Shown piece by piece: positions 1,551-19,174 of a DNA stretch of 20,210 nt. The stretch spans positions 1 to 20,210 of the IMG/VR virus record IMGVR_UViG_3300035698_002950. One strand, written 5' to 3'. The stretch comes from a virus. The notes under the pieces were generated by a model. It worked only from the letters and a program-made list of their open reading frames with translations, made no database searches and was not told the DNA's origin. How positions within the stretch are numbered: position 1 is the stretch's first letter; every line of letters starts with the position of its first letter. The position numbers and the translations under genes were made by a program.

Positions 1551-1868
1551 ATGCGGTGGTTGGTCTTGGCGGTGGTTGCGGTTGGGTGCGGGGAGTCGGA
1601 GCCCGTGGGGTCGAAGTACGACGAGGGTGCCACTCGGTTGACTTACACGTGCACGGGGGAGAACGACGAGACACACGAGTTCAACGTGACGCTAGAGGAT
1701 GGATCCGTCGCGCCCGTCGTGATGTGGGCTTCAGGGAACGACTACGACCCCACTTGGCGCCTACGCATCTCTGACATCGAGGTCAGAGATGGGCGTCCCT
1801 TCCTGCGGTGCTCGCAATACCACGAGTACACCGAGTTCGAGATCGTCGTAGCCAACGACTCAGAGTGA
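1551..1868 (+). CDS. Small secreted lipoprotein, probable phage moron
   Basis: A 105-residue protein on the strand opposite to its neighbours. The ATG at 1551 is chosen because GGAGG lies at 1541-1545, five bases upstream. The N-terminus MRWLVLAVVAVGC is a short hydrophobic signal ending in a lipobox-like AVGC, so Cys13 would be lipidated and the mature protein anchored in a membrane. Ala at -3 is less usual than Leu. The mature part is acidic, probably beta-rich, and has two further cysteines (Cys34 and Cys87) that could pair outside the cytoplasm. The gene lies between minus-strand virion genes, overlaps the tail-fibre stop convergently by nine bases and has its own upstream interval. Lysogenic conversion or superinfection exclusion is the leading inference; an outer-membrane spanin is less likely because no partner is seen. 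Confidence 0.75.
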   Translation: MRWLVLAVVAVGCGESEPVGSKYDEGATRLTYTCTGENDETHEFNVTLEDGSVAPVVMWASGNDYDPTWRLRISDIEVRDGRPFLRCSQYHEYTEFEIVVANDSE

Positions 1869-3032
1869 GGCGATGGTGTGCTTGACTCGTGCGCCAGTGA
1901 AGTGGATGCCGTCAGCTTGCGTGGGGATGTCTGCCCGCAGCGAGTAGGTGTAGGTGTCGAGGTCGACGGTGTGGCTGAAGGCTTGCACTCCCTCGAAGTC
2001 AGCGGCGCCGGGCGTGATTGTATTTGTGGCGAGCACAGTGAAGCCCGATGTTGCCAACGTGTGCCGCACCACCTGCATCGTGATGGTTGACCCAGCGCCG
2101 AAACCCTCACCCGTGAACCGCAGCTCGGAGAGGGCCGCGCCATGCGGGACAGCGAGGTTGGCGTACAAGGACAGGTCAGTTCCTGCTGACTTGACGCCAC
2201 TCGTGGTCGGGAGACTGATGGAACCCTCACGCACGAAGGCGGTGCCCGCCACCGATGCCCACCGCGTCCCCGCATTTGCCACCGAGATCGACCCGTCCAT
2301 CTCAATGTCACCCGTGAGGGCCAGCGACCCGCCCGCATTGATCGACACGTCGCCAGTCACATCCACCGTCAGCACGTGCGGGGTAGCCTCCAGCGCCCAA
2401 TCGCTGCCCAGCTTCCCAGCCCGTAGTAGGTTATCGGCGCTGAGCCGGCCTGCCACGAGGCTGCCACGGTCCCTAAGGTCGGTGGCGACATTGGATGGCG
2501 TCGCCGGCCCGAGCAAGAACTCAGCGAGATCCACATCGCCCGCGGACAAGGTTGGCCGGCTACCGCCCTCCACACCCTCGCGGATCACGATTCCTGCAGT
2601 GGTGGCGACGACGATGTACCAGGTGTCGAGGGTCGCAGCACCGCCATGCGTGGGGTCTACCGAGCCACCAACCAGCGCTGCCAGTTCGTAGGATGTGCCG
2701 TCGATCCACGCGATGCAGGCCAGCGCGGCAACTGTCCAGTCATCGGCGTCGACCCGCGTGATGGTGACCAGGCCGGCGTTGGCGTTGCCGTCTCGTAGGA
2801 TGCAGTCGCGGTTGAAGAACCGGGACTGGATCTTGTTGAGGTAGCCCAGCCAGTTGCCTACATGGTTCATCCACCAGTTGAACGTCTGGCGGGCTGGCTT
2901 CTCGTTCCCGCCGTTCCAGCCGTTGTCCTGCTTGCTCCCGCCTGGGTCGGCGACGGCTCCGACGGTCTCGACGCCCGAGGAGTCCTGCGCCCACCGCGCG
3001 TCCTTCAACGGCGTGAAATCATACTTGCCCAT
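1860..3032 (-). CDS. Tail-fibre-like protein
   Basis: A 390-residue protein from the ATG at 3032, which overlaps the upstream stop as TGATG. The N-terminal ~60 residues include a Gly-Gly-Ser-Lys-Gln stretch, GWNGGNEKPARQTFNWWMN and a WLGYLNKIQ segment. This layout is common at the start of phage tail-fibre and collar-fibre proteins, where it attaches the fibre to the baseplate. Residues roughly 200-310 are Gly/Ser/Ala/Thr-rich with short beta repeats (VDVTGDVSINAGGSLALTGD), consistent with a fibrous shaft. The last ~100 residues look like a compact beta domain that could bind the receptor. As the last gene of the tail series it sits where receptor-binding proteins normally lie. No fibre-assembly chaperone follows directly. 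Confidence 0.72.
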   Translation of the reverse strand: MGKYDFTPLKDARWAQDSSGVETVGAVADPGGSKQDNGWNGGNEKPARQTFNWWMNHVGNWLGYLNKIQSRFFNRDCILRDGNANAGLVTITRVDADDWTVAALACIAWIDGTSYELAALVGGSVDPTHGGAATLDTWYIVVATTAGIVIREGVEGGSRPTLSAGDVDLAEFLLGPATPSNVATDLRDRGSLVAGRLSADNLLRAGKLGSDWALEATPHVLTVDVTGDVSINAGGSLALTGDIEMDGSISVANAGTRWASVAGTAFVREGSISLPTTSGVKSAGTDLSLYANLAVPHGAALSELRFTGEGFGAGSTITMQVVRHTLATSGFTVLATNTITPGAADFEGVQAFSHTVDLDTYTYSLRADIPTQADGIHFTGARVKHTIASL

Positions 3033-3595
3033 CAAAACACCTCTGCAAAAACTCCGGCATCGAAGCCGAGAGCGGTAGGGTCTTCCAAGAAGCCGAACGA
3101 GTCGGCCATCGATTCTGTCTTGAGCAGCGCCACCCCAGCAGGGCGAACGAGTTCGATGAAGCGAGCCACACGAGCGCGCTCGGCAGGCGTCATCTCCACG
3201 ACCCGCTCGAACTGGATCTGCCCCCCCGCGGGGAACATGGTCCAGTGCGTGACGTCGGACGGCGCGGAGGTGTCAACCGCCACACGCAGCACGTCCTCAA
3301 CATTGCAGTCCGCCGAGATGGCGAAGAGCTTGATCTTGATGAAACGCCGGTAGTTATCGTCGAAAAGCGAGCCCCGAGGCTCGTCCACCCATGCCCCGAT
3401 CCGGTCGAGCATGGCGTTTTGAGCATGGTCAAGGTGTCGGCTGATGTACAGGTCGAACAGGTCGGTCTCCAGTCGCTGGAACGACACCATGAGTGCCGAC
3501 ACCAGGCCCGCGACCCCCGCTCGCCTCTTGTCCTGGGAGAGCAGCAAGTCGTGTGCGATGCCAACGACGTCGACCTCATTGACGATGGTACTCAT
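3032..3595 (-). CDS. Baseplate wedge protein, DUF2612 / tail protein I-like
   Basis: A 187-residue protein whose ATG overlaps the gpJ-like gene's stop (ATGA). Its middle reads LDRIGAWVDEPRGSLFDDNY and then RRFIKIKLFAISADCNVEDV. This fits DUF2612-type proteins, which follow gpJ in simple contractile tails and correspond to tail protein I of P2 or gp48 of Mu. In those systems the J and I proteins form the wedge arms linking hub to fibres. The order gp25-like, gpJ-like, this protein, then fibre supports the assignment independently of the motifs. It has no membrane segment or signal. Confidence 0.8.
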   Translation of the reverse strand: MSTIVNEVDVVGIAHDLLLSQDKRRAGVAGLVSALMVSFQRLETDLFDLYISRHLDHAQNAMLDRIGAWVDEPRGSLFDDNYRRFIKIKLFAISADCNVEDVLRVAVDTSAPSDVTHWTMFPAGGQIQFERVVEMTPAERARVARFIELVRPAGVALLKTESMADSFGFLEDPTALGFDAGVFAEVF

Positions 3596-4732: not shown

Positions 4733-5137
4733 CTAGGTGAACCTCTGGATGGTGAAGAGCCAAGGGGCTGTGTTCGCCGCGTTTCCGACGCCCGTGGCCA
4801 CGGTGAGGCCCAGCTCTGCGCCAGAGCTGAGCAGCACATGCCCAGTCACCTCCACAGTGCGTGACGCCGCGTCGTGAGTGGCATCCCAGGAGACAACCCG
4901 AAGTACTCCAGGGCATGTCTCTACGGCGACACGCGTGCGCCCGCTGATCGTAGCGAGTGGCGGAGGACGCTGGCTGATCCAGCCGAGGAAGTCCAGCCCC
5001 TTGGATTGGTCGAGGAACCACTCGCCGAGGTGTGTCCTCAATCGGCGCTCGATGCGCTGCACCACGAGGTTATCGCCAGTGACGCGGCGAAGAGGGAAGG
5101 CGATGTCGCCGTTGATGGTGCGCAGGTCGATGGGCAT
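4733..5137 (-). CDS. Baseplate wedge protein, gp25-like (lysozyme-like fold)
   Basis: A 134-residue protein from the ATG at 5137, overlapping the spike gene stop as TGATG and preceded by a GGGGGAG ribosome binding site. The stretch RRLRTHLGEWFLDQSKGLDF is the recognisable core of the T4 gp25 / P2 gpW family (GPW_gp25), which joins sheath to baseplate wedge and helps start sheath polymerisation. The C-terminal half alternates hydrophobic and polar residues as beta strands (RTVEVTGHVLLSSGAELGLTV, shown only in part by the family motif). Its position between spike and gpJ-like gene is the standard order. Despite the fold name, gp25-like wedge proteins are structural and need not be enzymes. Confidence 0.85.
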   Translation of the reverse strand: MPIDLRTINGDIAFPLRRVTGDNLVVQRIERRLRTHLGEWFLDQSKGLDFLGWISQRPPPLATISGRTRVAVETCPGVLRVVSWDATHDAASRTVEVTGHVLLSSGAELGLTVATGVGNAANTAPWLFTIQRFT

Positions 5138-5766
5138 CACTCCCCCTTCGCTTTGGTGGCGGCCACGTTTGCGCCAAAAGTAGGCGGCAAGATCACGGGC
5201 ACAGCGGCGGCCACCGTCAGCAGCAAGGCGTACAAGCGCTCGATCTCTGACGTCACCAGCGGAGCTGTAGCCAGTGGCACCGCGGCGATCCCGCCAAGCA
5301 TCACAGACGGGCCGCGGATCACGATGCCGGCGAACGCTGCAGCAGCTGCGACGTTTGCGTTGGGGGGCCCGGCGCCCACCGTGCACGGAATGAAATGCCC
5401 GTCGACCAGGTCGAAGCGTCTTGCGGACGTCGGCGGCGCGCCCACTGCGCGGCTCGCGCGGAAGGCGTCCGTCTCGCGGTCGGCGAAGATCACGAAGCCC
5501 GCCGTCCCTGCGACCAATGGCCAGGTGATCGAGTACGCGCCGCCGCCGGGAAAGCACACAGGTAGATCGAGGGGCGGCACTGGCACCGGCACAAGCGCGT
5601 CGACGTCCGGGTCGTCGCGAAGCAACGGCGACGCCATCTGCACCACCGCGCGGAGGGTGGTCGGGTTGTAGGACACCACAACCGCAGGCCCGCCCACACG
5701 GATCTTGCCGAGGGTGTCCGCTTGCCACAGCGCGTGTACGTCGCCAGTTCGGGGGGTGTCACTCAT
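5137..5766 (-). CDS. Baseplate spike protein, Gp138 N-terminal-domain type
   Basis: A 209-residue protein starting at the ATG at 5766, which overlaps the hub gene by four bases. Residues about 25-95 form an OB-like region. It includes VVVSYNPTTLRAVVQMASPL, a run of Val/Pro (ALVPVPVPPLDLPVCF), then PGGGAYSITWPL and AGFVIFADRETD. This Pro-rich strand, then PGGG, then FADR arrangement is typical of the Gp138 N-terminal domain found in simple trimeric tail spikes. Spikes of this class cap the hub and puncture the outer membrane. The C-terminal part is Ala/Val-rich and short, with no obvious His-x-His iron-binding tip or lysozyme domain. Confidence 0.78.
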   Translation of the reverse strand: MSDTPRTGDVHALWQADTLGKIRVGGPAVVVSYNPTTLRAVVQMASPLLRDDPDVDALVPVPVPPLDLPVCFPGGGAYSITWPLVAGTAGFVIFADRETDAFRASRAVGAPPTSARRFDLVDGHFIPCTVGAGPPNANVAAAAAFAGIVIRGPSVMLGGIAAVPLATAPLVTSEIERLYALLLTVAAAVPVILPPTFGANVAATKAKGE

Positions 5767-6587
5767 GCGCGTCCCTCCGGCTTGCCCAAGATCTGTACGT
5801 AGAACTCTCGGTCCCAGCCTGAGTCGCCCACGAACTCCACATCGCCAGCCACGTAGATCCCACTGAAGCTCTCGCTCTCGAGGACGAATCTCCGCCCGGG
5901 GCGCATGCCAGCGTCCAGCAGTGCGGTGATCTGCACCCCTTTGTCTGTCTGGGTGGGCGCTCCGATCAAGTTGCCAGTCAGCGCCGAGAACTTAGGGGCG
6001 ACCTCTGGCAATGCCGCGCCTCGAGGGGTCATGCACAGAGAGCCGTCTCGCACGAACCACTGAGCTTGGATCGCGCCCACGAGCTGATCAAGGAGGCCTC
6101 GCGCTGTGCCTACATAGGTGATGCCCTGCGGTAGCGTCTGAGCTGTCGGGATGGTGATCACTCCTCGAGCCCACAGCGTCTGCGCCAAGACCTGGCCGAT
6201 CACGACCTCGTACGAGGTGCCGGTCACCACCGAGATGGACACCAGCCGCTGCATCCCAGCGCCACCATCCGCGGCGTGGATCTCCAGGATCCGGTCACCG
6301 CCAGAGCGAGAAACCCTCACCCCATCCTTGACGATGTCCCCCGCGAAGACCTGCCTGGCCGCTGTCGACTCATACCCAGCCAACACTCGGATCGAGGCCT
6401 TGGGGATCTGGGCCAGCGCAATGGTGGTCGGCGAGGGGTTGTACAGCTGCACCACCGCCTCATTGGGTGTCGCGCTTGCCGAGTGCTTCACTCGAAAGTT
6501 CAATCGCAACGTCTCGAAACGCTGCCCTACAGAGCCAGCCACCCCGAGTTCAAGCGCTACCTTCCGGCCAACGAGTCCGGGAATCAT
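5763..6587 (-). CDS. Baseplate hub protein, gp27/gpD-like
   Basis: A 274-residue protein. The ATG at 6587 is chosen because GGAGG lies four bases upstream and the start overlaps the plug gene's stop as ATGA; the frame is open further upstream but without a good start. The N-terminal third reads as hub beta-barrel (LRLNFRVKHSASATPNEAVV, then LYNPSPTTIALAQ and VLAGYES). The C-terminus ends in a short domain with GRRFVLESESFSGIYVAGDVEFVGD. This resembles the compact hub proteins of small contractile tails, related in fold to P2 gpD and T4 gp27. It would form the trimer that closes the tube and carries the spike encoded next. Confidence 0.75.
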   Translation of the reverse strand: MIPGLVGRKVALELGVAGSVGQRFETLRLNFRVKHSASATPNEAVVQLYNPSPTTIALAQIPKASIRVLAGYESTAARQVFAGDIVKDGVRVSRSGGDRILEIHAADGGAGMQRLVSISVVTGTSYEVVIGQVLAQTLWARGVITIPTAQTLPQGITYVGTARGLLDQLVGAIQAQWFVRDGSLCMTPRGAALPEVAPKFSALTGNLIGAPTQTDKGVQITALLDAGMRPGRRFVLESESFSGIYVAGDVEFVGDSGWDREFYVQILGKPEGRA

Positions 6588-6901
6588 GACGCCTCCACCA
6601 CGCGCAGCGTCGACGCGATGAGGGCGGGCAGCTCGGACACTGGCACGTAGATGAGCTCTGGACCGTGGGCCACGTAGAACTCGCCAGCAGGGCGACGGTC
6701 GATCCCATGGCCATGCAGTGGAAACCAGCCCACCGACAGCCGACGGCCAAACACGATCGTAACCTCGTCCGCGTCGTACATGTCGAGGTACCACGCCGCC
6801 TGGCGGTCGTTGTACCGCAGGCGAATCACCACCTCAACATTGTCCAATGTCATCCGATAGCGGTGACTTGGCAGGTCCAGAATGGGAAGGCGCACCGCCA
6901 T
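6584..6901 (-). CDS. Baseplate plug protein (Pam3 gp18-like)
   Basis: A 105-residue protein whose ATG shares one base with the upstream TGA. The segment VVIRLRYNDRQAAWYLDMYD fits the small plug domain known from cyanophage Pam3 and related simple myophages, where residues around an aromatic WYLD core pack against the hub. The rest includes TIVFGRRLSVGWF and ends in a short acidic tail. In those phages the plug gene sits between the Dit-like or tail-terminal protein and the hub, exactly as here. No enzyme motif or membrane segment is seen. The family assignment comes from motif recollection and position. Confidence 0.68.
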   Translation of the reverse strand: MAVRLPILDLPSHRYRMTLDNVEVVIRLRYNDRQAAWYLDMYDADEVTIVFGRRLSVGWFPLHGHGIDRRPAGEFYVAHGPELIYVPVSELPALIASTLRVVEAS

Positions 6902-7455
6902 CAGGTGGCCTCCTCAGCTGCGCCAAAGAAGAAGTCGCCGATCGCCGCTGCCGCAGACGTCTTGCCAGTGGTGGTGGGCACCGTGGGCGCCTGCGTGCCC
7001 GCGTCGGCCTCGTCCGGCATCCCGGAGCCAGCCTTGGCGGATGGCACCCGAGCCGGGATCACTACGGCCACTGGTGTCGCGAATGCGATCTGATCGAAGG
7101 ACAGGTCGTATCGGCGCCCCATCATGACTGTCTGGCTTGTGGGGTAGCCCGTCAGCAAGCAGTTCAGGATCGTCCCGTCTCGCACTGTGTCGACTGCGAT
7201 CAGCCTGCCTACGGCGGTCGACAAGAACGCGCGCGCCTCCTCGACCGCTTGAGGGCGCGGCACCGTCAGCTGCACCGGAGTGAACAGGGCGCCCACGATG
7301 GTGAAGCGCAGGGGCTCCTCTTGCGCGTGGTCGGAGACGGGCGACCCCACCTCCACAGGATGGGATGTCACGCGGATCCGGGAATCGTAGCGGATCTCCT
7401 GATAGCCGTCGATCTTCAACACAAGGCCATCGTCGCGGGTGAGTAGGGCGCTCAT
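6901..7455 (-). CDS. Dit-like distal tail / baseplate ring protein
   Basis: A 184-residue protein whose ATG at 7455 overlaps the tape-measure stop (ATGA). Features of the Dit-like N-terminal domain of phage tail proteins are PVSDHAQEEPLRFTIVGALF near residues 40-58 and the segment RAFLSTAVGRLIAVDT. A middle stretch reads GRRYDLSFDQIAFATP. These proteins form the first ring after the tail tube and seed the baseplate. The C-terminal ~50 residues are Ala/Thr/Pro-rich, of low complexity, and probably flexible. Its place directly after the tape measure is the expected position for a distal-tail protein. Confidence 0.75.
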   Translation of the reverse strand: MSALLTRDDGLVLKIDGYQEIRYDSRIRVTSHPVEVGSPVSDHAQEEPLRFTIVGALFTPVQLTVPRPQAVEEARAFLSTAVGRLIAVDTVRDGTILNCLLTGYPTSQTVMMGRRYDLSFDQIAFATPVAVVIPARVPSAKAGSGMPDEADAGTQAPTVPTTTGKTSAAAAIGDFFFGAAEEAT

Positions 7456-9143
7456 CGGACACCGCCACGAGCAGGCGCTGCAGCTTGGCGGTTCTGGCTT
7501 GCAACGTAGGCCTCAAGCTCTTGAGCTCGCATGCCTGTGGCGTTGACGTTCGTGACCTGACTGCTTGTGCTGCTGTTGTTCACCGTGGAGCCACCGCCAC
7601 CAGCTGACAGGCGATCGGCTGCCAAGTCCGGGGGAGACAGGCGCACAGACGTAGAGCTGACGGGCGCCTCGCTAAGGCCTTCGAGACCGCCTGCCAGCCC
7701 ACCACTCACATACTCGCCAAGGCCAAGGGCGCCACGCAAGACCTTGTAGCCGAGGTTGCCAACGGCCTCGACGGCGCCCTTGATGCCCTTCCAGATCCCC
7801 AGGAGTGTTTTGCTGTCGTCGATGATGTCGTATAGGACCGACCCGGCGCCGACGAAGGCGTCCCTCAGGCCCTGGAGCGCAGCAGGCCCGACCACTCCAG
7901 CGAGCTTGAAGAGCGCGCGAAACACGCGCAACCCGTTCTCGAACTGGCGAGCCAGCGAGCCCATCACCGAATCCTGCTCCTTGAAGCGATCGATGAAGCG
8001 ACCAAGCAGGGAGTCGCCGCCCTGCAGCGCGGTGTAGATGTCCTGCAAGACGAAGAACCAAAACCCGAAGGTGGCAGCCACCGCAGCCACCGCAACGGCC
8101 ACCCAGCCAAGGGATACGCCAGCCGCCGCGGCCGCTATGGAGCTTGCAACCCAGAGGTTCCGCAGCGACATCACTAGTGGGATGATCTTGCCCAGGGCCA
8201 GGACCACCGCGACGGCAGCCCCACCACCCAACAGCCCCTCGTAGAGGCCCTCATATCCACTCGTGCGCCTGATCAGCAGGTCGAGCCTCTCGAAGGCCTC
8301 ACGCAACGCATCCACAGGGCCCTTGAGCCGCTCTACCCACGACTGCATGCCCGAGCGCATCAGCTCTGCGTTGGCCATGCCCCAGTCCCGAATGCCATTC
8401 ACGACGTCCTGCACAACCGGAGCGAGCGCCACCCCGAGCGTGTTGCGGAGCCCTTGGCCCATCTGCATCAGCTGACGCCAGCTGCGGCTCAACGACGAGC
8501 TCGCGGCCACGGCGTCGTCACTCATGACGACACCCATGCGCTCAGCTTCGTCCCCCATGCGCTCCATGCCCGCAGACCCGAGCTGGAGCATGGGCAGCAG
8601 CTTGTTGCCTACGTCGTCGCCCAAGATGCGGACCGCGGCGGTGAGCGCCTTGTTCGGGTCGGTCGCGGCGGCGATCTTGTCCGCGAACAGGTCGAGCAGC
8701 TCTGCGGGCTTCTTCCCCCGGAGTTCGTCAACCTTGACCCCGACGAGCCCGAAGTCGTCGATGAACGACTGCATGCCGCCCTTCGCATCCTCGGCCCGGT
8801 CGGCCAGGGTGCCCAGCACGTCAGCTACATCACCGCCATCTGCGCCGAAGGCCTCGAAGGTCGCCACCATGCGCTGGTATTGGCGCTGCGTCACGGCGAG
8901 GGCGCGGCTTCGGCGCTCGATGGACTCGGCGTCCCGACCTGTGGCGAGGGCCTGCGCGGTGAGCGCAGCGGTGCCAGCCGTGAGGCCAGCTACGAACTTC
9001 GCACCTAGCTTCACAGCGCCTTCAAAGGACTTCTTCACTTCGTTCGTCTGCTTTTGCACCTTCTCGAGGCCGGCCAGCGTCTTGTCGACGTCCTTCACAC
9101 CGAAGGCGACCAAGAGCTTGCGGATGACCTTTTCGCTAGCCAT
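7452..9143 (-). CDS. Tail tape measure protein
   Basis: A 563-residue protein. The ATG at 9143 is chosen because AGGAAGG lies just upstream; the frame extends 13 codons further without a better start. Residues 1-60 are Lys/Glu/Val-rich coiled coil. Then come long Ala/Leu helices including LGTLADRAEDAKGGMQ and ADKIAAATDPNKAL, as in tape-measure N-terminal regions. Around residues 320-400 are hydrophobic segments (AAVAVVLALGKIIPLVMSL and a Val/Ala-rich pair) that could insert in the host membrane during DNA delivery. The C-terminus is Gly/Ser/Asn-rich. It overlaps the chaperone ORF by eight bases. Tail length scales with this protein, and 563 residues implies a fairly short tail (inference). 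Confidence 0.92.
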   Translation of the reverse strand: MASEKVIRKLLVAFGVKDVDKTLAGLEKVQKQTNEVKKSFEGAVKLGAKFVAGLTAGTAALTAQALATGRDAESIERRSRALAVTQRQYQRMVATFEAFGADGGDVADVLGTLADRAEDAKGGMQSFIDDFGLVGVKVDELRGKKPAELLDLFADKIAAATDPNKALTAAVRILGDDVGNKLLPMLQLGSAGMERMGDEAERMGVVMSDDAVAASSSLSRSWRQLMQMGQGLRNTLGVALAPVVQDVVNGIRDWGMANAELMRSGMQSWVERLKGPVDALREAFERLDLLIRRTSGYEGLYEGLLGGGAAVAVVLALGKIIPLVMSLRNLWVASSIAAAAAGVSLGWVAVAVAAVAATFGFWFFVLQDIYTALQGGDSLLGRFIDRFKEQDSVMGSLARQFENGLRVFRALFKLAGVVGPAALQGLRDAFVGAGSVLYDIIDDSKTLLGIWKGIKGAVEAVGNLGYKVLRGALGLGEYVSGGLAGGLEGLSEAPVSSTSVRLSPPDLAADRLSAGGGGSTVNNSSTSSQVTNVNATGMRAQELEAYVASQNRQAAAPARGGVR

Positions 9144-9354
9144 GTTTCGCCTTCCTCTCTTGCTCTCGACGCTGGATTGCATCGGATGCCTGTCGCGCGT
9201 CTAGGTCGATCCAGGTGTCGTAGATGTCGCGGAATGCCCAGTGTCGGCGCACCTCGGTGGGGCTGACCTTGTAGGCCACCGCCACGCGGTACAGGTGCGG
9301 GTTGTGCATCCGCTTTGCCGCCCGCCACATGGGCATGGCGGCTGCTTCGCTCAC
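9136..9354 (-). CDS. Tail assembly chaperone, second ORF (also reachable by -1 frameshift)
   Basis: A 72-residue ORF that can start at a GTG overlapping the first chaperone's TGA (GTGA), with GGAG five bases before it. It reads MWRAAKRMHNPHLYRVAVAY, then KVSPTEVRRHWAFRDIYDTW, and ends in a charged Arg/Glu/Lys tail. The frame is open far upstream, beyond the slippery heptamer at 9405-9411. A -1 slip there would join it to the first 120 residues of the upstream ORF, giving about 209 residues. That layout, just before the tape measure, matches gpG/gpGT-type tail chaperones. Independent GTG initiation and frameshifting may both operate. Confidence 0.72.
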   Translation of the reverse strand: MSEAAAMPMWRAAKRMHNPHLYRVAVAYKVSPTEVRRHWAFRDIYDTWIDLDARQASDAIQRREQERKAKHG

Positions 9355-9764
9355 ACCTTCTCCGCCATCTTCTTTGCTTCCTCCAAGGAGGTAATGGGCA
9401 GCGGCAAAAAAGCGTTGTGCAGCACGACCTCTTTGAGGGCCATCCAGCACTCGGTGTAGTTGCCTTTGTAGGCATCGCCGAAGACCACCGGAGAGCCCAG
9501 GGGCTGGCCGTCTCGCGTGGTGTGGAGCAAGATCCGGGCTGCCAGCTTGGGCAAGTCGATCTTGTCCAGCGCAGCGACCACCTGGAGCGCGTCGATGGTC
9601 TCGCCGTTGCCGCCCATCAAGCCAGCCAAAGCAGGAAGCCCCAACTTGGTCAGCTCGCAGGACAGCGCGAATCCCTCGCCGCCAGAGTGGAAGGACACCT
9701 CGTATAGGTGCGCAGCGCCCTTGGCGTCGGAGAGGCTGAACGTCGCGTCGTGGGCCGAATCCAT
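9351..9764 (-). CDS. Tail assembly chaperone, first ORF
   Basis: A 137-residue protein whose ATG overlaps the tube gene stop (TGATG). It is soluble, with FSLSDAKGAAHLYEV near the N-terminus, a Leu/Ala-rich middle with GLMGGNGETIDALQVVAALD, and FGDAYKGNYTECWMALKEVV near residues 95-113. Lying between tube and tape measure, it fits the short chaperone that coats the tape measure before tube polymerisation. A heptamer T TTT TTG spans the codons for Phe119 and Leu120, 17 codons before the stop, so some ribosomes may shift into the next ORF. The family is inferred from position, size and the frameshift layout more than from a named motif. Confidence 0.75.
   Translation of the reverse strand: MDSAHDATFSLSDAKGAAHLYEVSFHSGGEGFALSCELTKLGLPALAGLMGGNGETIDALQVVAALDKIDLPKLAARILLHTTRDGQPLGSPVVFGDAYKGNYTECWMALKEVVLHNAFLPLPITSLEEAKKMAEKV
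9405..9411 (-). other. Predicted -1 ribosomal frameshift site (T TTT TTG)
   Basis: On the minus strand the first chaperone ORF reads GCT TTT TTG with the TTT codon at 9410-9408. The heptamer T TTT TTG allows both tRNAs to re-pair one base back, and the -1 frame is exactly that of the second chaperone ORF, open to 9136. About a dozen bases downstream lies CCTCCTTGGAGG, a small self-complementary element that could form a weak hairpin. This layout is established for lambda gpG/gpGT-type tail chaperones. Efficiency here is unknown. Confidence 0.6.
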
Positions 9765-10216
9765 CAGACCACCCCGACGGGAACGATCGCCGTGCCGCGG
9801 TCGAACGTCGGCGAGGGCAGGCCGATCCGAACGGTGATCTCACCACTCGTCTTCTTCGCCATCATGGGCAGGTCGGTGAGGAACACCCCGGCCACGCAGT
9901 AGCAGAGGTCGCCTGTCGCCAAGTTGGTGTAGCTGAAGACGAGCGGAGGCACGCGGCCGACTGTCTTGAGCGCCAGCTTCTGGGCCGTGATGTACTTGGC
10001 GATGATCGAGTAAGCGAAGCTGTTCTGCTTGATGACGATCTCGGCGATGAAGTTGTCGTCGTTGCTCGAGTCGAACGTGGGCACGCCATCTGCCGACACA
10101 GACATAGTCACCATGTCGCTGTTGGGCTGGATGTCGATGGCGTCGGACTCGCCGAACTCTTTGACCTCGATTGCGCCGAGGATCAGATGGCAGCCGGCAA
10201 GAGAGTGGTTTCGCAT
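9764..10216 (-). CDS. Tail tube protein, DUF3277-like
   Basis: A 150-residue protein starting at the ATG at 10216, four bases after the sheath stop, with GGAGG nine bases upstream. It opens with SLAGCHLILGAIEVKEFGES, then VTMSVSADGVPTFDSSNDD, and KQNSFAYSIIAKYITAQ near the middle. These are typical of DUF3277-type tube proteins paired with DUF3383-type sheaths. It would form the inner tube through which DNA passes. The C-terminal half contains FSYTNLATGDLCYCVAGVF and a beta-rich end. Position directly after the sheath and before the chaperones is standard. Confidence 0.85.
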   Translation of the reverse strand: MRNHSLAGCHLILGAIEVKEFGESDAIDIQPNSDMVTMSVSADGVPTFDSSNDDNFIAEIVIKQNSFAYSIIAKYITAQKLALKTVGRVPPLVFSYTNLATGDLCYCVAGVFLTDLPMMAKKTSGEITVRIGLPSPTFDRGTAIVPVGVV

Positions 10217-10220
10217 GGGA

Positions 10221-11285
10221 TCAGGCCTCCGCTGCGATCGGGTCGCGGCTCAAGTAGACGTCGAGGTCGAAGAAGATGGCGTCGGTCTGCGTCTGGGCGC
10301 GAACCGTCATCCGAAGCCTTTTGGCTGCAGTGTCGGCAATGGTGATCTCCTCACCATCGGCGGAGTAGTCATCGAAGTGACCGACCTGCAGACCTTGAGC
10401 ACCAAGTCGCCGCAAGGGCGCCAAGCAAAGCTCTTGGCCAACCGGGTTGACTGGCACCTTTAAGCCGAGCGCTGAGCGCTGCACCTTCACGTCCGCCAGC
10501 GCCTCGCGGGCGCGAGATCGGAGCCAGTCCGCGGTAGTCAGCTCGTAGACGGGCCGCCCCGTGAGGGTCACGCCGTCCATGACGAAGAACGTCGAGGAGC
10601 CGTACGCGAGGCCCACGTTGCAGTTGTTGCCAACAACAAAGTTGCGCTGCGTTTCCGTTAGGGCGGGAGGGGTCACACCCTTGACGGTCAGCGCCGCTGG
10701 GGCGCTGCGTTCATCAGGGTTCCATGCCAGGTAGGCCGCAGCGTAGCCCTCTGCGTGCCCAGCGCCATCTACCGAGTTGTAGAGCACGGTCGTGCGCTCG
10801 TTGGTGGTGATGGCCGCGAACGATGCGGGCTGGCTTGCCGTCAGCCAGTCTGCGAGGCTGCTCTGCACAAATAGGCGCCGAAGTCCTTCTGCTTCGATCG
10901 CGTTGCTGAGCGGAGCGATGTCAGACGCTGTTCGGGACAGCATGCACACGCCGTACACGGCGGGGTCAGCGGCCACGCAGGCGGCGTAGCCCGTGGCCCA
11001 GGTCTCCGATGCCGCGGTGTCGACCTGTCCAAGCTTCACGCGCTTGAGGCGTGGCGCCTGGCTGAACATCGTCGTGAGGATGTTCTTGGTACCAGTCGTG
11101 ATCTTGCCAGCCACCACAGCGGCTGCAGCCTCGGTGGGATTGTTGATCGTGAGGATGCGGGCGCCCAGGTCGTCCGTGTCGACGTCCACCAAAAGTAGGA
11201 TGTCACTGAAGCTCACTGCTGGAGTGGGCTGCGCCTGAAGGAAGATTTCTATTGTGATGGATCGGCTGGCGTGGTCTGCGCTCAT
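10221..11285 (-). CDS. Tail sheath protein, DUF3383-like
   Basis: A 354-residue protein starting at the ATG at 11285, overlapping the neck gene stop by four bases. It shows the DUF3383 pattern. The N-terminal part is a compact beta-rich domain (SITIEIFLQAQPTPAVSFSD), a central domain has TTVLYNSVDGAGHAEGYAAA and AYLAWNPDERS, and the C-terminal part has VYELTTADWLRSRAREAL and LKVPVNPVGQ. It is shorter than T4 gp18, as expected for minimal contractile tails without extra surface domains. It forms the contractile outer layer. A Mu-type FI sheath is the main alternative family, but the role is secure from neighbours and motifs. Confidence 0.87.
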   Translation of the reverse strand: MSADHASRSITIEIFLQAQPTPAVSFSDILLLVDVDTDDLGARILTINNPTEAAAAVVAGKITTGTKNILTTMFSQAPRLKRVKLGQVDTAASETWATGYAACVAADPAVYGVCMLSRTASDIAPLSNAIEAEGLRRLFVQSSLADWLTASQPASFAAITTNERTTVLYNSVDGAGHAEGYAAAYLAWNPDERSAPAALTVKGVTPPALTETQRNFVVGNNCNVGLAYGSSTFFVMDGVTLTGRPVYELTTADWLRSRAREALADVKVQRSALGLKVPVNPVGQELCLAPLRRLGAQGLQVGHFDDYSADGEEITIADTAAKRLRMTVRAQTQTDAIFFDLDVYLSRDPIAAEA

Positions 11286-11797
11286 GCGATGCTCTCGTCG
11301 TAGGGTGTGGACTGGACGCCGACCTCCTGGTCAACCTCCACAGATTCCGCGGGCACGAACGCCTCTGCAGTGGTGCGGCGTCGGTAGGAGATGTCGAGCT
11401 CTTGTAGGCATCGGGGCTCGGTCGCCGTGTCGATGAAGCGAGACACGTCCGTCAAGCCGCCATTTAGCTCGACCGACAACCCAGCCGCGAAGAGGTACTC
11501 GGACGCCAGCGGGCCAGCGAGGCGGATCATGGCCTCGCCGAGCTCATTGATGGCCACCTCGCCGTAGGCGTTGAGGCTCACAGTGCCGCGATGTTCGCCG
11601 TCGACAGCCACCATGTCGGAGTCGAGGAAGAAGACACCAGCGCCGCCGCTTGGCACGCCGTGGAGGGTCACTTTGTAGGTGACGTAGGGCAAGGCAGGGC
11701 GGGCCTGGTCTTGGTCGGCAGCAATGACTGTGGTCACGCCAGCGGCGGTTAGCCACGTGTAGAGCACAGTCTCGATGTCGCGGCGGGTGCTGATCAC
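11282..11797 (-). CDS. Neck / tail terminator protein (LIC_12616-like)
   Basis: A 171-residue protein. It begins MISTRRDIETVLYTWLTAAG, then RPALPYVTYKVTLHGVPSGG, followed by VSLNAYGEVAINELGEAMIR, and near the end CLQELDISYRRRTTAE. This pattern of a short N-terminal helix, an RP-x-LPYVTYK strand and an NxYG motif fits the LIC_12616 / neck-terminator family that caps the tail tube and contacts the head-completion proteins. Position between the head-closure protein and the sheath agrees. The last ~25 residues are acidic and probably flexible. Confidence 0.75.
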   Translation of the reverse strand: MISTRRDIETVLYTWLTAAGVTTVIAADQDQARPALPYVTYKVTLHGVPSGGAGVFFLDSDMVAVDGEHRGTVSLNAYGEVAINELGEAMIRLAGPLASEYLFAAGLSVELNGGLTDVSRFIDTATEPRCLQELDISYRRRTTAEAFVPAESVEVDQEVGVQSTPYDESIA

Positions 11798-14283: not shown

Positions 14284-15435
14284 TCAGATGCGGATGCGGA
14301 CAGCTGCGACGCCGTCCTGTGCGTTGTTGGTGCCCTCGGTCTCCCACTGGGCCTTGGTGCGTGCCAGGGCCACGCGGGTCGAACTGGGCGAGCCGTAGAG
14401 CTGGCCCTTGGTCGCGCCCGCAAGCTCGACGTAGACTAGGCCGCTTGCGGTCACTGCGCCGTCATGGGCGACCCAGACAGGAGCGTCAGTGTGCGCAAGC
14501 ACGCCAGCGTTCCCGGCGAACTGGCCGACACCACCGATGGTGGCCGGGGCTTCGTCACGAGCGTGCGCGGCAATGCCGGCGAACGCACGGTTCAGCGAGG
14601 TCAGGATGCTGGGGCCCGTGGTGCTCGCCAGCGAGATCGCCGGAGCGCTGGCGCCGCCGGAGATGTGGTTCACCTCGATGTCGAACTCGAGCCCCGTGAT
14701 CTCCGCAGTGGACGTCAGGGTCGTAGCGCCACCAACCACGTCGACGGTGTTCGCGGGCAGCTGCGCATTCAGCGCAGTCGCCAAGGCCGTCAGGGTGGCG
14801 GCCTGGCTGGTGGCCGAGGTGACTTCGGTACTGGCCAGCAGCACGCGTTCTGCGCCGCGCACCTCGTAGATGGCTGCGCCAATGATCGCGGATGCGACGT
14901 AGGCGATGGTCGCGGTCTTGACCTGGGCGGTCAACTGCGCCGAGCTCGCCAGTGCACATAGCTCTTCAGCTTGGCCAGCGTCGTAGCCACGCGACAGGAC
15001 CGCACACCCGAAGGGGACGGGGTCTGCCGAGAGTGCGGATTGGGTGACAGCGAGCGTCACCTGCGCGTCCACGCCGGTGATGAGCACGTCGTCGCCGGGG
15101 TAGAGGGCGGTGAAGGTCACCACCGCAGACGCGGTGGTCGCCACGCCCTTGCCACGTGCGATGGGGTCGGCGTTGATGGCCGCGGCGATGCCGGTCGCGA
15201 TGTTCGTGGTGTTGTTGTCGGCCGCGGTGAAGCTGACCCCGCGACCCGCCACAGTGACGCCGTAAACGCGCGACAGGGTGCCAGTGTCGACCGTGAGGGT
15301 CTGAACCTTCACGCGCTGAGGGTCGGAGTTCAGGTAGCTCTTCTGACGGTTGCTGCCGTCCGAGCGTACGATCATTCCGGGCAGACCCTGACGGGCCGAG
15401 CGACGGACCTCGTGGGCCTGGAAGCTGGTATTCAT
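14284..15435 (-). CDS. Head decoration / structural cement-like protein with two repeats
   Basis: A 383-residue protein whose ATG overlaps the protease stop (ATGA). Its N-terminus (SARQGLPGMIVRSDGSNRQK) and the VPFGCAVLSRGYDAGQAEEL segment near residues 139-158 resemble gp24-type structural cement proteins, which stabilise the capsid. It is unusual in holding two Ala/Thr-rich modules, at about residues 45-132 and 175-257. Each pairs a strand region with a helix ending in INAD or LNAQ. A similar module appears in the gene at 719-1459. The gene lies between protease/scaffold and major capsid, the normal cement position. Repeats could mean surface-exposed decoration domains (inference). Confidence 0.7.
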   Translation of the reverse strand: MNTSFQAHEVRRSARQGLPGMIVRSDGSNRQKSYLNSDPQRVKVQTLTVDTGTLSRVYGVTVAGRGVSFTAADNNTTNIATGIAAAINADPIARGKGVATTASAVVTFTALYPGDDVLITGVDAQVTLAVTQSALSADPVPFGCAVLSRGYDAGQAEELCALASSAQLTAQVKTATIAYVASAIIGAAIYEVRGAERVLLASTEVTSATSQAATLTALATALNAQLPANTVDVVGGATTLTSTAEITGLEFDIEVNHISGGASAPAISLASTTGPSILTSLNRAFAGIAAHARDEAPATIGGVGQFAGNAGVLAHTDAPVWVAHDGAVTASGLVYVELAGATKGQLYGSPSSTRVALARTKAQWETEGTNNAQDGVAAVRIRI

Positions 15436-16043
15436 GCAGCACCTCCAGCGGCCTTGAAGGCCTCATCTTTTCGTTTGAATTGAGCGGCGGTTGGCGAGAG
15501 TTTGGGCTCTTTGCCCTGGGTATCGTCGACGTCGGTACGGGTCGCGGCGTCGCCCTCGCCCCATGCGCTGCGGCCAGCCTCCCGACCGTCCGCGCGCCTC
15601 GCCATGTCGGCGCGGATCACAGCCAGCAGGCCAGGCACCATGGACACGTCGGCGGTGTCGACTCGCGTCTTGGCAATGGCCAGCTCGAGGGCAGCGAGGT
15701 CGAGGCCGTCAGTCTTGACGTCCACAGTCTTCGCAAGCGTCTGGAGCTCGGTGAGTGCCTCGGAGTCCTTGAGGTCCTTAGCGGCCTTGTCAGCCCTCTC
15801 GGCTGCGGCCTTCAGGTCGGCGTTCTCCTTCGCCATCTTCTCCATGTCGGCCTTCATGGTCGACACCGCCTTATCGGCGTCCTTCTTCTCTTTCTCAAGC
15901 GTGCCAACATACTCGTCGGTGTACTTGCCAGCGTCAGCCTTCAAGGCCTTCACAGCTTGGAAGCCAGCCTCAAGGGCTGCGTCTTCGTTGTCGGTGCGCT
16001 CAACGCCGGCCAGGGCCAGCAGACGCACGAGATTTGGTTTCAT
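15432..16043 (-). CDS. Nested scaffolding protein (internal in-frame start)
   Basis: Within the protease gene, ATG codons occur back to back at 16046 and 16043, and GAGG lies five bases before the second. Starting there gives a 203-residue product that lacks the protease domain and begins MKPNLVRLLALAGVERTDNE. It consists mainly of a Lys/Glu/Ala coiled coil (for example EKEKKDADKAVSTMKADMEK) and a basic C-terminal tail that could bind capsid protein. This matches the established C/Nu3 plan of lambda, where scaffold is translated from inside the protease gene. The internal start is a prediction; abundance relative to the full-length protein cannot be judged from sequence. Confidence 0.6.
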   Translation of the reverse strand: MKPNLVRLLALAGVERTDNEDAALEAGFQAVKALKADAGKYTDEYVGTLEKEKKDADKAVSTMKADMEKMAKENADLKAAAERADKAAKDLKDSEALTELQTLAKTVDVKTDGLDLAALELAIAKTRVDTADVSMVPGLLAVIRADMARRADGREAGRSAWGEGDAATRTDVDDTQGKEPKLSPTAAQFKRKDEAFKAAGGAA

Positions 16044-16652
16044 CATGTCCTCTCGTTGTGGTTGCTTTGCCTGCCCGGCGGGGGGCATGACCTGCCAGTC
16101 GGTGACGACAGCCTCTTCCGCATCGACGCGGATTGCTGCCTCGGGGCCAGCACGTCCCACCTCAACAATCGCGAGGTGGTTCGACTCACAGCCGACCTGC
16201 GCAGCGTCGTAGCGCCCATACATTGGGTGCACGCCCGGTCGAGGGTCGAGCAGCACGTCGTAGCCGACAGACAGCTCGCGCTTGCCCGCGAGCACGGCCC
16301 GGATCGCGTCCTCGCGACGCACCGCCATCGAGACGCGAACGAAGCCACCCTGGGACGTCTCTTCGACTGACGCCTCGCCATCGACGTCGCCCACGCCGTA
16401 CTTGTCGACGTTCTCGCTGTCGACGAAAACAGGAGGGTGGTCGAGCGTCACAGATGAGCGGGGAAGCGTACGAGCCGTGTCCTCCACCGCCTTGCGCGTG
16501 ACAAGCTCTCGGCGGATCGTGCCGTCCGCGTTCCGGTATTCAAGGATGCCTTCGCGCCGCGCATAGCCCTCGACGAGCAAGGCGCCATCAGACTTACGGC
16601 GCCAATTGCGCAGTAGGGGGCCGCCGGAATCGTAGCGTCGAACGAGGTTCAT
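15432..16652 (-). CDS. Prohead protease, DUF2213-like, with C-terminal scaffold region
   Basis: A 406-residue protein from the ATG at 16652; the frame is open 16 codons upstream but only to a TTG. The protease half (about 1-195) holds SSVTLDHPP with probable catalytic His72, KRELSVGYDVL with probable nucleophile Ser128, and CESNHLAIVEVGRAG with His159. ELSxGY and NHLAxVxxGRAG are signatures of DUF2213 and related herpes-like prohead proteases. The C-terminal half is Lys/Glu/Ala-rich coiled coil and resembles a scaffold. The protease would cleave the scaffold and possibly the capsid during maturation. Ribosome binding at 16652 is weak. Element B (16671-16685) lies 18 bases before the start, so transcription of the whole series may be controlled there. 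Confidence 0.87.
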   Translation of the reverse strand: MNLVRRYDSGGPLLRNWRRKSDGALLVEGYARREGILEYRNADGTIRRELVTRKAVEDTARTLPRSSVTLDHPPVFVDSENVDKYGVGDVDGEASVEETSQGGFVRVSMAVRREDAIRAVLAGKRELSVGYDVLLDPRPGVHPMYGRYDAAQVGCESNHLAIVEVGRAGPEAAIRVDAEEAVVTDWQVMPPAGQAKQPQREDMMKPNLVRLLALAGVERTDNEDAALEAGFQAVKALKADAGKYTDEYVGTLEKEKKDADKAVSTMKADMEKMAKENADLKAAAERADKAAKDLKDSEALTELQTLAKTVDVKTDGLDLAALELAIAKTRVDTADVSMVPGLLAVIRADMARRADGREAGRSAWGEGDAATRTDVDDTQGKEPKLSPTAAQFKRKDEAFKAAGGAA

Positions 16653-16670
16653 AGTCCATAGGGTAGCGCG

Positions 16671-16685
16671 TCTATGAATCGTAGA
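16671..16685. promoter_or_regulatory. Operator-like palindrome in front of the minus-strand series (B)
   Basis: TCTATGAATCGTAGA is a 15-bp near-palindrome with one mismatched pair. Read towards the protease gene, the minus strand is ACGATTCATAGACGCG (16682-16667), identical at 15 of 16 bases to element C in front of the portal gene. It lies 18 bases upstream of the protease ATG and near a possible RHH promoter, so one protein bound here could govern both directions. Binding by the RHH protein is inferred from position. Confidence 0.55.
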
Positions 16686-16710
16686 TATGTGCAGTCGCAA
16701 AATTCCGGGC

Positions 16711-16716
16711 TACAAT
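16711..16716 (+). promoter_or_regulatory. Candidate -10 box for the RHH gene
   Basis: TACAAT matches the sigma70 -10 consensus at five of six bases, 46 bases before the ATG at 16763. The hexamer 17 bases upstream (TGTGCA, 16688-16693) is only a weak -35, so an activator or alternative promoter may be needed. Element B ends three bases before that -35 position, which would suit autoregulation. Confidence 0.35.
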
Positions 16717-16762
16717 TGGACACAGTCCCCCTCATTGCAACCATTCATCCTGGGTCGAGCAC

Positions 16763-16930
16763 ATGGCCAAAGAACCGACATCACCCGTTCACACCCGGCT
16801 GCCCAAACGGCTCATTCAGCGCGTCGACGCCGTTGCCAAGCGTGGCACCCGTACACGCTCGATGCAGCTCACTCGCTGGATTCTCGAAGGACTAGAGCGC
16901 GACGAGCGCGACCCGACGCGGTACGATTGA
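16763..16930 (+). CDS. Ribbon-helix-helix transcriptional regulator (55 aa)
   Basis: A 55-residue ORF that short-ORF cutoffs would miss. It reads MAKEPTSPVHTRLPKRLIQR, then VDAVAKRGTRTRSMQLTRWI, then LEGLERDERDPTRYD. A short strand (VHTRLP) followed by a helix (KRLIQRVDAVAKR), a turn, and a second helix (RSMQLTRWILEGLERD) is the Arc/CopG ribbon-helix-helix plan, in which paired strands of a dimer read the major groove. Its size and basic N-terminus fit that class. It lies in the divergent interval between the protease and portal genes, and palindromic elements of similar sequence flank it at 16671-16685 and 16940-16955. It probably regulates both structural transcripts and perhaps the distant 1447-1497 interval; that regulon is inference. 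Confidence 0.78.
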   Translation: MAKEPTSPVHTRLPKRLIQRVDAVAKRGTRTRSMQLTRWILEGLERDERDPTRYD

Positions 16931-16932
16931 CA
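16927..16932 (+). promoter_or_regulatory. Candidate -35 box (TTGACA) before the portal gene
   Basis: A perfect TTGACA overlaps the stop codon of the RHH gene. No good -10 hexamer lies at the usual spacing: TAGACG at 16948-16953, 15 bases downstream, is the nearest and is poor. If used, the promoter would be overlapped by element C and give a leader of only a few bases, so repression by an operator-bound protein would be direct. The match may also be chance. Confidence 0.3.
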
Positions 16933-16955
16933 CGAATACACGATTCGTAGACGCG
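16932..16955. promoter_or_regulatory. Operator-like element in front of the portal gene (C)
   Basis: ACGATTCGTAGACGCG at 16940-16955 repeats element B with one change, in inverted orientation relative to it. An inverted pair ACGAAT (16932-16937) and ATTCGT (16943-16948) overlaps its left half, and another ACGATT lies at 16923-16928, 17 bases upstream of the core, so several half-sites cluster here. The portal ATG follows eight bases later, with GAGG at 16955-16958 as ribosome binding site. Confidence 0.5.
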
Positions 16956-16963
16956 AGGCTCGC

Positions 16964-19174
16964 ATGGGTATGTTCGACTGGTTCACCCCCGCCACTCCAC
17001 CCCAACTGCTGGGGCCCCAACTCCCCGACGATGCAGCCACCAACTCCACCCTCAGGCAGCGGCTCGACTCGGTCTTCAACCAGCTCACGGGCATGGGCGG
17101 TGCTGGCGACAAGGGTGCGGCCAACGATGTCGACATATTTCGCGTACCCCTCGACCACGTCCGCCTGACCAGTCTGTGGGAGTACAACGGCATCGCGAAC
17201 CGCATCGTCTCCCTGCTGCCTGACGAGGCCGCCCGAAAGGGCTGGTCGGTGCCTGAACTCGCCGCCGAGGAGCAGCAACTCTCCATCCACCACCAGGTGC
17301 ACGAGGCGATGACTTGGGCGCGCCTGTACGGTGGAGCCATTGCTGTGCTCGTCACCGAGGATGACGTGCCTGGGGCATTCCATGGTGACCCCACACAGTG
17401 GCTCGCCCAGCCCCTTGACCTCGACCGCGTTGGGAAGGTCCATGCGCTGCAGGTCTTCGACGCCCTCGAGGCTCAGCCTGGCCCACCCCACAGGGACCTG
17501 ATGAGCCCCTTCTACCGGCAGCCCGCCTACTGGGACGTCGTCATCGGGGCGCGGCCCCTACGCGTGCACGCCTCCCGGGTCCTGTACTTCCGGGGCGCCA
17601 AGCGCGCGCCTCACAAGCGCGAGAGCTACCGGCTCATGCCCGACAACTCCGTGCTGCAGACCGTGTGGGATGAGATCGGCCGCCTGTGCTCCACCATGCA
17701 GTCAGGCGCTGTCCTCGCAGCCGAGATCCGTGAGTCCGTGCTCAAGGTCGACGGCCTGGCCAACGTGGCCACTGGCGACCAGCAGTCTGCCCTCACCGAG
17801 CGCGTTCGCCTCATGGCCCGCGCTAAAGGCATGCTGGGGATGATCCTGCTTGGGCCTGGTGACGAGTACAGCAACCGAAGCAACCCGCCCACCGGATTCA
17901 AAGAGCTCTCTGGCGAGGCGCGCACCATGCTCGCCGGCGTCGTGGGCTGGCCACAGATCGTGCTGTATGGCGAGGCGCCCGGGGGCATGTCCACGGATGG
18001 GGCCAGCGGCTGGCAGCTGATGGACCGGATCACCAGCACCTACCAGGAGAGACATCGCCCACTCCTCGAGCGCGTCTACGGTGCCTGCTACGCCGCCCAA
18101 GACGGCAGCACCAAGGGGCAGCGGCCCGACGACGACTACCTCACCTTCCTCTCCCTCGACGAGCCCACCGACAAGGAGAAGGCCGAGAGCCGGAAGATTG
18201 TCGCCGAGAGCGACGTCCTGTACATCTCCGCGGGCGTGATCGACCCCTCCGAGGTGCGGGAGAGCCGATTCGGTGAGGAGGGGTGGCAGGTCGACCTTCG
18301 GACGCTCGATGCCTTCGAGGACGAGCCCGGCGCAGACTTCGCGCCAGTGCCCGACGTGCCCGACGTGCTCACCCCCGGAGCGCCCGACGTCCAGGCCACC
18401 GCGCTCAACGGCTCGCAGATCACCAGCGCGCTCAACATCCTGTCACTGGTCGCCACCCGGCAGCTCCCCCGCGAGACCGGCGTGTCGAGCCTCGCGCGCT
18501 TCTTCACGCTCAGCGTCCAGGAGGCCGAAGGCATCATGGGCCCCGTGGGCGCCACCTTCTTCGTCGAGCCCACCACCGCAGACCCCTCCCAGGTCGCGCA
18601 GGTCACCGACGCCCTGCATCGCCTTGACGCGGCTCTCGTCGAGCGCTGCCGTCGCATCGACGAGGCCATCGCTCAGCACGCCGGCACCGTGATCCTCATT
18701 CCTGCGCCCACGCCCGCCATCCCAGACAGCGCGCCACTCATCACGCGCGAAGAGCATCCCCACATCACCGTCCTGTACCTGGGCAAGACCCAGCCAAAGG
18801 ACCACGCCGAACTCATTGAGATCCTCACCGACGTGATGCGTGGGCGCGACCCAGCCCAAGACCTCCGTGAGGGGCGCCTGACCACCTTCCCCGACGGCCA
18901 CAACGGCACGCCGCTTGTGTTCGAGTACGACCACTCGTGGGCGCTCAACGACCTGCATGAGAGTCTGTTACGGCGCCTGGCTCACCTCATCAGCGCCAAG
19001 CAGTACCCGAGCTACCGGCCACACCTCACGCTCGGCTACCTCCCACAGTTGACACCTGACGAACGCGCTGAGCTGGTCGCCACCGAGGTCGAGGGGCCCA
19101 TCGTGCCGCTCTCCGAGGTCGTGTTGCTCGCAGGTGGGCAAGAGATCGCTCGCGTACCTTGGGGTGGCGCGTGA
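16964..19174 (+). CDS. Portal protein fused to a C-terminal 2H phosphoesterase (Acb1-like) domain
   Basis: A 736-residue protein from the ATG at 16964 with GAGG five bases upstream. Residues about 1-440 read as a DUF1073 (Phage_portal_3) portal: LWEYNGIANRIVSLLPDEAA, EAMTWARLYGGAIAVLVTED, MLGMILLGPGDEYSN and GVVGWPQIVLYGEAPGGMST. The portal ring is the DNA channel at one capsid vertex. Residues about 465-530 hold a segment often seen at the end of such portals (LNGSQITSALNILSLVATRQ and SVQEAEGIMG). From about 575 to the end is a 2H phosphoesterase-like domain with two H-x-T motifs, His600-Ile-Thr602 (HPHITVLYLG) and His687-Leu-Thr689 (YRPHLTLGYL), 87 residues apart. T4 Acb1, which destroys CBASS cyclic nucleotides, uses the same catalytic pair. 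Anti-CBASS activity is an inference; RNA 2',3'-cyclic phosphodiesterase activity is the main alternative. Confidence 0.85.
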   Translation: MGMFDWFTPATPPQLLGPQLPDDAATNSTLRQRLDSVFNQLTGMGGAGDKGAANDVDIFRVPLDHVRLTSLWEYNGIANRIVSLLPDEAARKGWSVPELAAEEQQLSIHHQVHEAMTWARLYGGAIAVLVTEDDVPGAFHGDPTQWLAQPLDLDRVGKVHALQVFDALEAQPGPPHRDLMSPFYRQPAYWDVVIGARPLRVHASRVLYFRGAKRAPHKRESYRLMPDNSVLQTVWDEIGRLCSTMQSGAVLAAEIRESVLKVDGLANVATGDQQSALTERVRLMARAKGMLGMILLGPGDEYSNRSNPPTGFKELSGEARTMLAGVVGWPQIVLYGEAPGGMSTDGASGWQLMDRITSTYQERHRPLLERVYGACYAAQDGSTKGQRPDDDYLTFLSLDEPTDKEKAESRKIVAESDVLYISAGVIDPSEVRESRFGEEGWQVDLRTLDAFEDEPGADFAPVPDVPDVLTPGAPDVQATALNGSQITSALNILSLVATRQLPRETGVSSLARFFTLSVQEAEGIMGPVGATFFVEPTTADPSQVAQVTDALHRLDAALVERCRRIDEAIAQHAGTVILIPAPTPAIPDSAPLITREEHPHITVLYLGKTQPKDHAELIEILTDVMRGRDPAQDLREGRLTTFPDGHNGTPLVFEYDHSWALNDLHESLLRRLAHLISAKQYPSYRPHLTLGYLPQLTPDERAELVATEVEGPIVPLSEVVLLAGGQEIARVPWGGA

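Follow-up and report, generated by a model that had tools for sequence, protein, structure and literature searches.

A predicted lipoprotein gene facing the tail operon of a contractile-tailed phage, probably a moron

What is a small plus-strand gene (ORF 1551-1868) doing among the minus-strand tail genes of a contractile-tailed phage? The window analyzed here is the whole virus record, 20,210 bases. The phage is encoded by minus-strand genes that run leftwards from about 16,700, and PHROGs recognizes a head maturation protease, capsid, sheath, tape measure, baseplate hub, and baseplate wedge. At the right end, on the plus strand, are a portal gene, a head morphogenesis gene, and the start of a terminase-like gene ("terminase-like" is our own reading). 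These diverge, across a 260-base interval (16700-16964), from the minus-strand protease, capsid, and all the tail genes. The C-terminal part of the portal protein (gene 16964-19174, plus strand, 736 aa) has two HxT-type motifs, and residues 599-702 weakly match the RNA-ligase/2H-phosphoesterase-like family phrog_755 (E = 0.0011). Judging by these resemblances, a phosphoesterase-like domain fused to the portal might act against cyclic-nucleotide defense.

Because a search of 2.9 million viral contigs with five tail and head proteins gave one close relative (41% identity over 55 fiber residues), we place this phage far from known ones. Among those contigs the DUF2612-like, 719-1459, sheath, and capsid genes had no direct relatives, and the fiber had one. 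When phage records were searched with tblastn, baseplate J matched 187 records, and the sheath and fiber matched none. No lysogeny genes were recognized in the 20-kb record.

As originally predicted, ORF 1551-1868 runs against both of its neighbors. Upstream and divergent from it is a minus-strand gene without an assigned function (719-1459); downstream is a minus-strand tail-fiber-like gene (1860-3035), which has a weak baseplate/tail PHROG match and an N-terminal FNWWMN stretch in common with locus L002. The ORF occupies a 400-base gap; elsewhere the minus-strand tail genes overlap in a chain that has no other gap of this size. It is convergent with the fiber gene, and the 3' ends of the two overlap by 9 nt (stops at 1866-1868 and 1860-1862). 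The interval between the ORF and the divergent gene is 91 nt long (1460-1550) and is the presumed promoter region. Scans of the plus strand around the ORF found no sigma-70-like promoter and no terminator, high-GC host promoters being outside the range of the scan. An imperfect palindrome at 1444-1466 (11-nt arms, 10 of 11 positions paired) was considered as a candidate operator and rejected; with 5 such repeats in the window versus 5.5 per random sequence, it is not above chance. On the far side of the divergent gene, the products of 328-717 and 719-1459, both on the minus strand, are weakly alike (E = 0.016) around a GGTGTI stretch, and from that resemblance they are possibly duplicated virion or fiber-associated proteins.

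Several features indicate that ORF 1551-1868 is a coding gene. It has 105 codons, and a Shine-Dalgarno sequence read directly from the letters, GGAGG at 1541-1545, lies 5 nt ahead of the ATG, which agrees with the ORF length and good spacing claimed in the original prediction. The G+C content by codon position is 0.58/0.44/0.80, resembling that of the other genes of the phage. The other five frames over the same stretch all contain stops, the +2 frame having one. With a codon table built from ten other genes, the ORF scored 0.11, whereas a base-composition null gave −0.41 (standard deviation, 0.11), so that the ORF is about 4.6 standard deviations above the null; the highest of 5,000 null draws scored −0.02. 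By codon score the ORF ranked 24th of 120 ORFs, directly under the phage's genes, in a ranking for which the codon table included both neighbors and in which three short or shadow ORFs were among the higher ranks.

The product begins with MRWLVLAVVAVGC, a minimal lipoprotein signal of 12 residues with one charge (R2), followed by Cys13. The window has 810 start codons that open at least 60 codons, and four of these passed a PROSITE-like lipobox rule. Two of the four belong to this gene (ATG1551 and GTG1548), and the other two, by eye, have no lipoprotein-like signal; ORF 1551-1868 is thus the only one among the 810 starts to combine a lipobox with a signal-like start. The lipobox-like Cys13 that had been predicted therefore satisfies the rule with its charge in place. 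In PROSITE the lipobox Cys usually falls at residues 15 to 35, so Cys13 is closer to the start than is usual; an upstream start, TTG1518, would place the Cys at residue 24 and has no Shine-Dalgarno sequence. We regard the product as a predicted lipoprotein that, from its sequence, would be cleaved by signal peptidase II and lipidated.

The mature part has 93 residues, a net charge of −13, and the two further cysteines that had been noted, Cys34 and Cys87. Its highest 19-residue hydropathy is 0.67, and thus there is no second membrane segment. AlphaFold2, run on the single sequence, gave strands only, with a mean pLDDT of 46.7. A Foldseek search of the PDB with this model returned 83 matches, none at an E value of 0.001 or better, the model being too weak for such a search. 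From the model, the mature domain is probably all-beta, and it probably has a single disulfide.

The original prediction did not recognize the family, and neither did any search that we made. The mature part had no homologue in any sequence collection searched, and the protein had none among the viral contigs or the phages. The whole protein matched no family in Pfam, PHROGs, NCBIfam, or PADLOC; the Pfam-A search extended to E values of 10, at which HMMER filters drop most matches above about 0.1. A match of a fragment to Pfam DUF6023 (E = 0.15) was at chance level, and nothing among the PDB sequences was below E = 0.69. Across 84,980 species genomes there was one match, to a bacterial lipoprotein (genome G001) whose resemblance is confined to the signal and the few residues that follow, and plasmids gave one match at E = 0.5. 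We rejected a match at E = 0.003 among 188 genomes of the phylum of genome G001, which is not significant over 188 genomes and whose opposite strand, by eye, encodes a sugar-nucleotide-enzyme-like protein. The style of the signal (VGCGESEP) recalls Myxococcota, and this resemblance may be taken as the sole hint at the host.

If the protein has no relatives, does its position? A portal-family search of G001's phylum matched 8 of 377 genomes and gave 9 loci; repeated at the class level, it yielded no further genome. One locus (G308) was set aside because it lies among housekeeping genes and by eye is not phage, and three end early, two near the portal (G029 and G341) and one inside the hub (G179:C8). 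Four extend past the last tail gene (G045, G278, G179:C99, and G088), and a fifth, G343, stops 1.27 kb past the fiber. Two of these loci, and a third found by a hub alignment described below, encode opposite-strand lipoproteins with 3' ends abutting a tail gene, at distances of −4 nt (L009), +1 nt (L024), and +2 nt (L103). GGAGG precedes all four inner starts in the window, L009, L024, and L103, and the mature parts of the four lipoproteins are mutually unrelated.

In L009 (genome G278) the lipoprotein gene (8843-9214, plus strand, 123 aa) converges with a large minus-strand tail gene (9211-11364), the two stops sharing one CTAG; its mature part, of which 116 aa were scanned, contains Cys. L009 also has a second plus-strand lipoprotein gene (6066-7013) about 2 kb from the tail-abutting one, with a collagen-like product (PF01391, E = 1.7e-21). 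A plus-strand membrane protein gene (8302-8835), with a weak match to the PADLOC "2TM effector" (E = 0.014), ends 7 nt before the tail-abutting gene and may be cotranscribed with it. In L024 (genome G045) the lipoprotein gene (15227-15724, plus strand; 136 aa from the inner start, Cys-rich) ends 1 nt from a minus-strand fiber gene (15726-17729), and the N terminus of that fiber has the same style as the fiber in the window. YadA head repeats, a motif of bacterial adhesins, are also present in this phage fiber of L024 (PF05658, E = 1e-23). Because the L009 and L024 lipoprotein genes are located at the junction of a plus-strand region with the tail genes, they may belong to a plus-strand operon.

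L103 (IMGVR_UViG_3300017565_000075) is a contig of 69% G+C in the reverse arrangement. Its lipoprotein gene is on the minus strand (6778-7398), its stop is 2 nt from that of a plus-strand gpV-like gene, and a gp25-like gene lies past its start; both names are our own reading of the sequences, with no family search behind them. The window counterparts of these flanking genes (5137-5766 and 4733-5140) share 4 nt, and the L103 lipoprotein gene therefore looks inserted into a compact tail module. Such adjacency was shown for the L103 pair only; no relative was seen with the window's own flanking pair (719-1459 and 1860-3035) minus the insert. The L103 product begins MRWMMLAALVGLVGCG and continues with a collagen-like stretch, a feature also of the L009 6066-7013 product, and a domain that contains Cys and matches DUF7481. 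The first 14 to 16 residues of the window and L103 products are alike (blastp-short E values of 0.0003 to 0.0006), and the mature parts are unlike.

How often would such an arrangement be expected? A lipoprotein gene directly follows the last tail gene in three of four portal-derived loci (three of five with G343), and in two of four (two of five) it is also opposite and convergent. In the third case, G179:C99 (L011), the last tail-like gene is followed by a gene for a 151-aa lipoprotein on its own strand. G088, with same-strand membrane genes after the fiber, is a miss, and G343, in which the 1.27 kb past the fiber holds no flagged lipoprotein, is a probable miss. By the same rule, 13 of 173 background genes encoded lipoproteins, and of the 44 genes in close convergent pairs 2 did so; the sample was 20 stretches of the same four genomes, three of which had no readable bases. 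A second gene caller gave 36 convergent pairs, of which 4 included a lipoprotein; 3 of the 36 had stops no more than 10 nt apart, and one of these three had a lipoprotein. At 7.5%, the binomial chance of at least 3 of 4 is 0.0016 and of at least 2 of 4 is 0.03, but because the comparison was chosen after the pattern was seen, these figures describe a small sample and prove no pattern.

Wider scans found the arrangement rarely. An alignment scan with baseplate J gave 24 loci, 4 with flagged lipoproteins (L002, L031, L036, and L044), all on the late strand and at least three of them near lysis-type genes; among the genes listed for these 24 relatives there were no opposite-strand lipoproteins. 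A hub alignment scan gave 53 loci in 42 groups, many with little sequence past the hub; flagged lipoproteins were found at 4, of which three have it on the late strand and only L103 (1 of 53) has it opposite. When convergent opposite-strand ORFs were counted automatically across 55 GC-rich loci, 14 rows resulted, of which 2 were flagged lipoproteins (the window and L009). We do not use this count as a clean statistic because it includes several shadow-like ORFs and three copies of one locus and because it missed L024 and L103, which came from gene tables rather than from this filter. Among the literature titles and abstract openings consulted, we found no description of opposite-strand lipoproteins lying stop to stop with tail genes, and we make no claim that the layout is unpublished.

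Because four phages carry unrelated, opposite lipoprotein genes packed stop to stop, we view these as cargo genes rather than as an accident of one contig. That layout, the orientation of lambda bor, and the statement in an excerpt of PMC7067206 that moron loci characteristically lie antisense to lytic genes are our reasons for concluding that ORF 1551-1868 is, on balance, probably a lipoprotein moron: a self-contained gene that was inserted into the tail operon in the reverse orientation. The original proposal of a moron thus gains support from the three loci of similar layout and from bor. The same excerpt gives lom and bor as expressed in lysogens. A promoter in the 91-nt divergent interval would transcribe the gene independently of the late promoter, so that it could be expressed while the minus-strand late genes are off, as in a prophage. 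The product would then be exported by Sec, cut by signal peptidase II ahead of Cys13, and lipidated on that Cys. In E. coli, Gly at position +2 is not known to act as an inner-membrane retention signal, and the outer membrane is consequently the likely address. There the acidic domain would alter the cell's contact with the outside, in the first place with other phages and otherwise with predators or host factors.

A narrower form of the moron reading gives the lipoprotein a role in superinfection exclusion or receptor masking, like that of Ltp, Llp, or Cor: once anchored, the domain would bind the phage's own receptor, fiber, or injection machinery and block related phages. This was the first guess because the fiber gene adjoins ORF 1551-1868, and the lipoprotein gene is next to the fiber in L024 as well. 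However, the expected tracking of the fiber held in those two phages and not in the others, since the L009 gene is beside a large tail gene and the L103 gene is between gpV-like and gp25-like genes. In addition, the product has no family match, none of the PADLOC defense families matched, and Ltp is located in a lysogeny module, not among tail genes (excerpt of PMC3952083). We therefore hold this more specific role to be possible but tentative.

Another reading makes the product a lysis lipoprotein encoded after the tail genes, either an outer-membrane (Rz1-like) or a one-piece spanin. Rz1-type and one-piece spanins are likewise small phage lipoproteins encoded near the end of the late operon, and in the IMG/VR relatives L031, L036, and L002 small lipoprotein genes past the fiber are close to lysis-type genes. 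Those genes are codirectional with the late genes, whereas ORF 1551-1868 is opposite, and no holin, endolysin, or inner-membrane spanin partner was recognized in the window. A one-piece spanin needs a second transmembrane segment, which the hydropathy maximum of this product does not provide. We consider a spanin much less likely than a lipoprotein moron.

Less likely still is a periplasmic inhibitor carried as cargo, such as an MliC-type lysozyme inhibitor. The size, lipobox, two Cys residues, and beta content (from a low-confidence model) resemble those of MliC, but the family model PF09864, which matched 6 of 14 control genomes, found nothing in the record at E values up to 10. As the whole protein also has no Pfam match, we dropped this identity. 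That the ORF is a chance open frame in GC-rich DNA, or a relic, would fit the many long spurious ORFs in the window, the absence of homologues, and a codon score under those of nearly all phage genes, but it is highly improbable given codon statistics far above the null, an intact signal with its lipobox, the GGAGG, and the exact fit into a tail operon that has no other large gap.

A broader idea can be put forward, though we think it rather doubtful at present. In a set of GC-rich, poorly known myophages, exchangeable, unrelated opposite-strand lipoprotein genes might dock recurrently at the 3' end of a tail gene, with stops packed tightly so that the late operon is undisturbed. Each would change what the lysogen displays on its surface, perhaps in keeping with the specificity of the tail or fiber gene next to it. 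For this ORF alone the result is modest. However, homology searches are poorly suited to finding small lipoprotein morons, each of them an orphan, and if position and orientation (opposite strand, stop to stop with a tail gene, lipobox) identify them, surface-altering prophage cargo could be found systematically in phyla with almost no studied phages.

Among known systems, Ltp of Streptococcus thermophilus phage TP-J34, a superinfection-exclusion lipoprotein, is likewise phage-encoded and a proposed moron; apart from its site in the lysogeny module, it differs in serving a Gram-positive host (excerpt of PMC3952083), and our product has no sequence match to it. Lambda bor has the same kind of layout, being also a small lipoprotein gene opposite the late genes and just past the end of the late operon (beyond Rz). 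Unlike the gene in the window, bor follows lysis genes rather than a fiber gene and is separated by a 31-nt gap instead of having overlapping stops; the product has no sequence match to the Bor family (Pfam-A, 0 families). Bor is an outer-membrane lipoprotein that confers serum resistance. ORF 1551-1868 is like bor in its layout, and its product would probably work like Bor by bringing a small domain to the host envelope.
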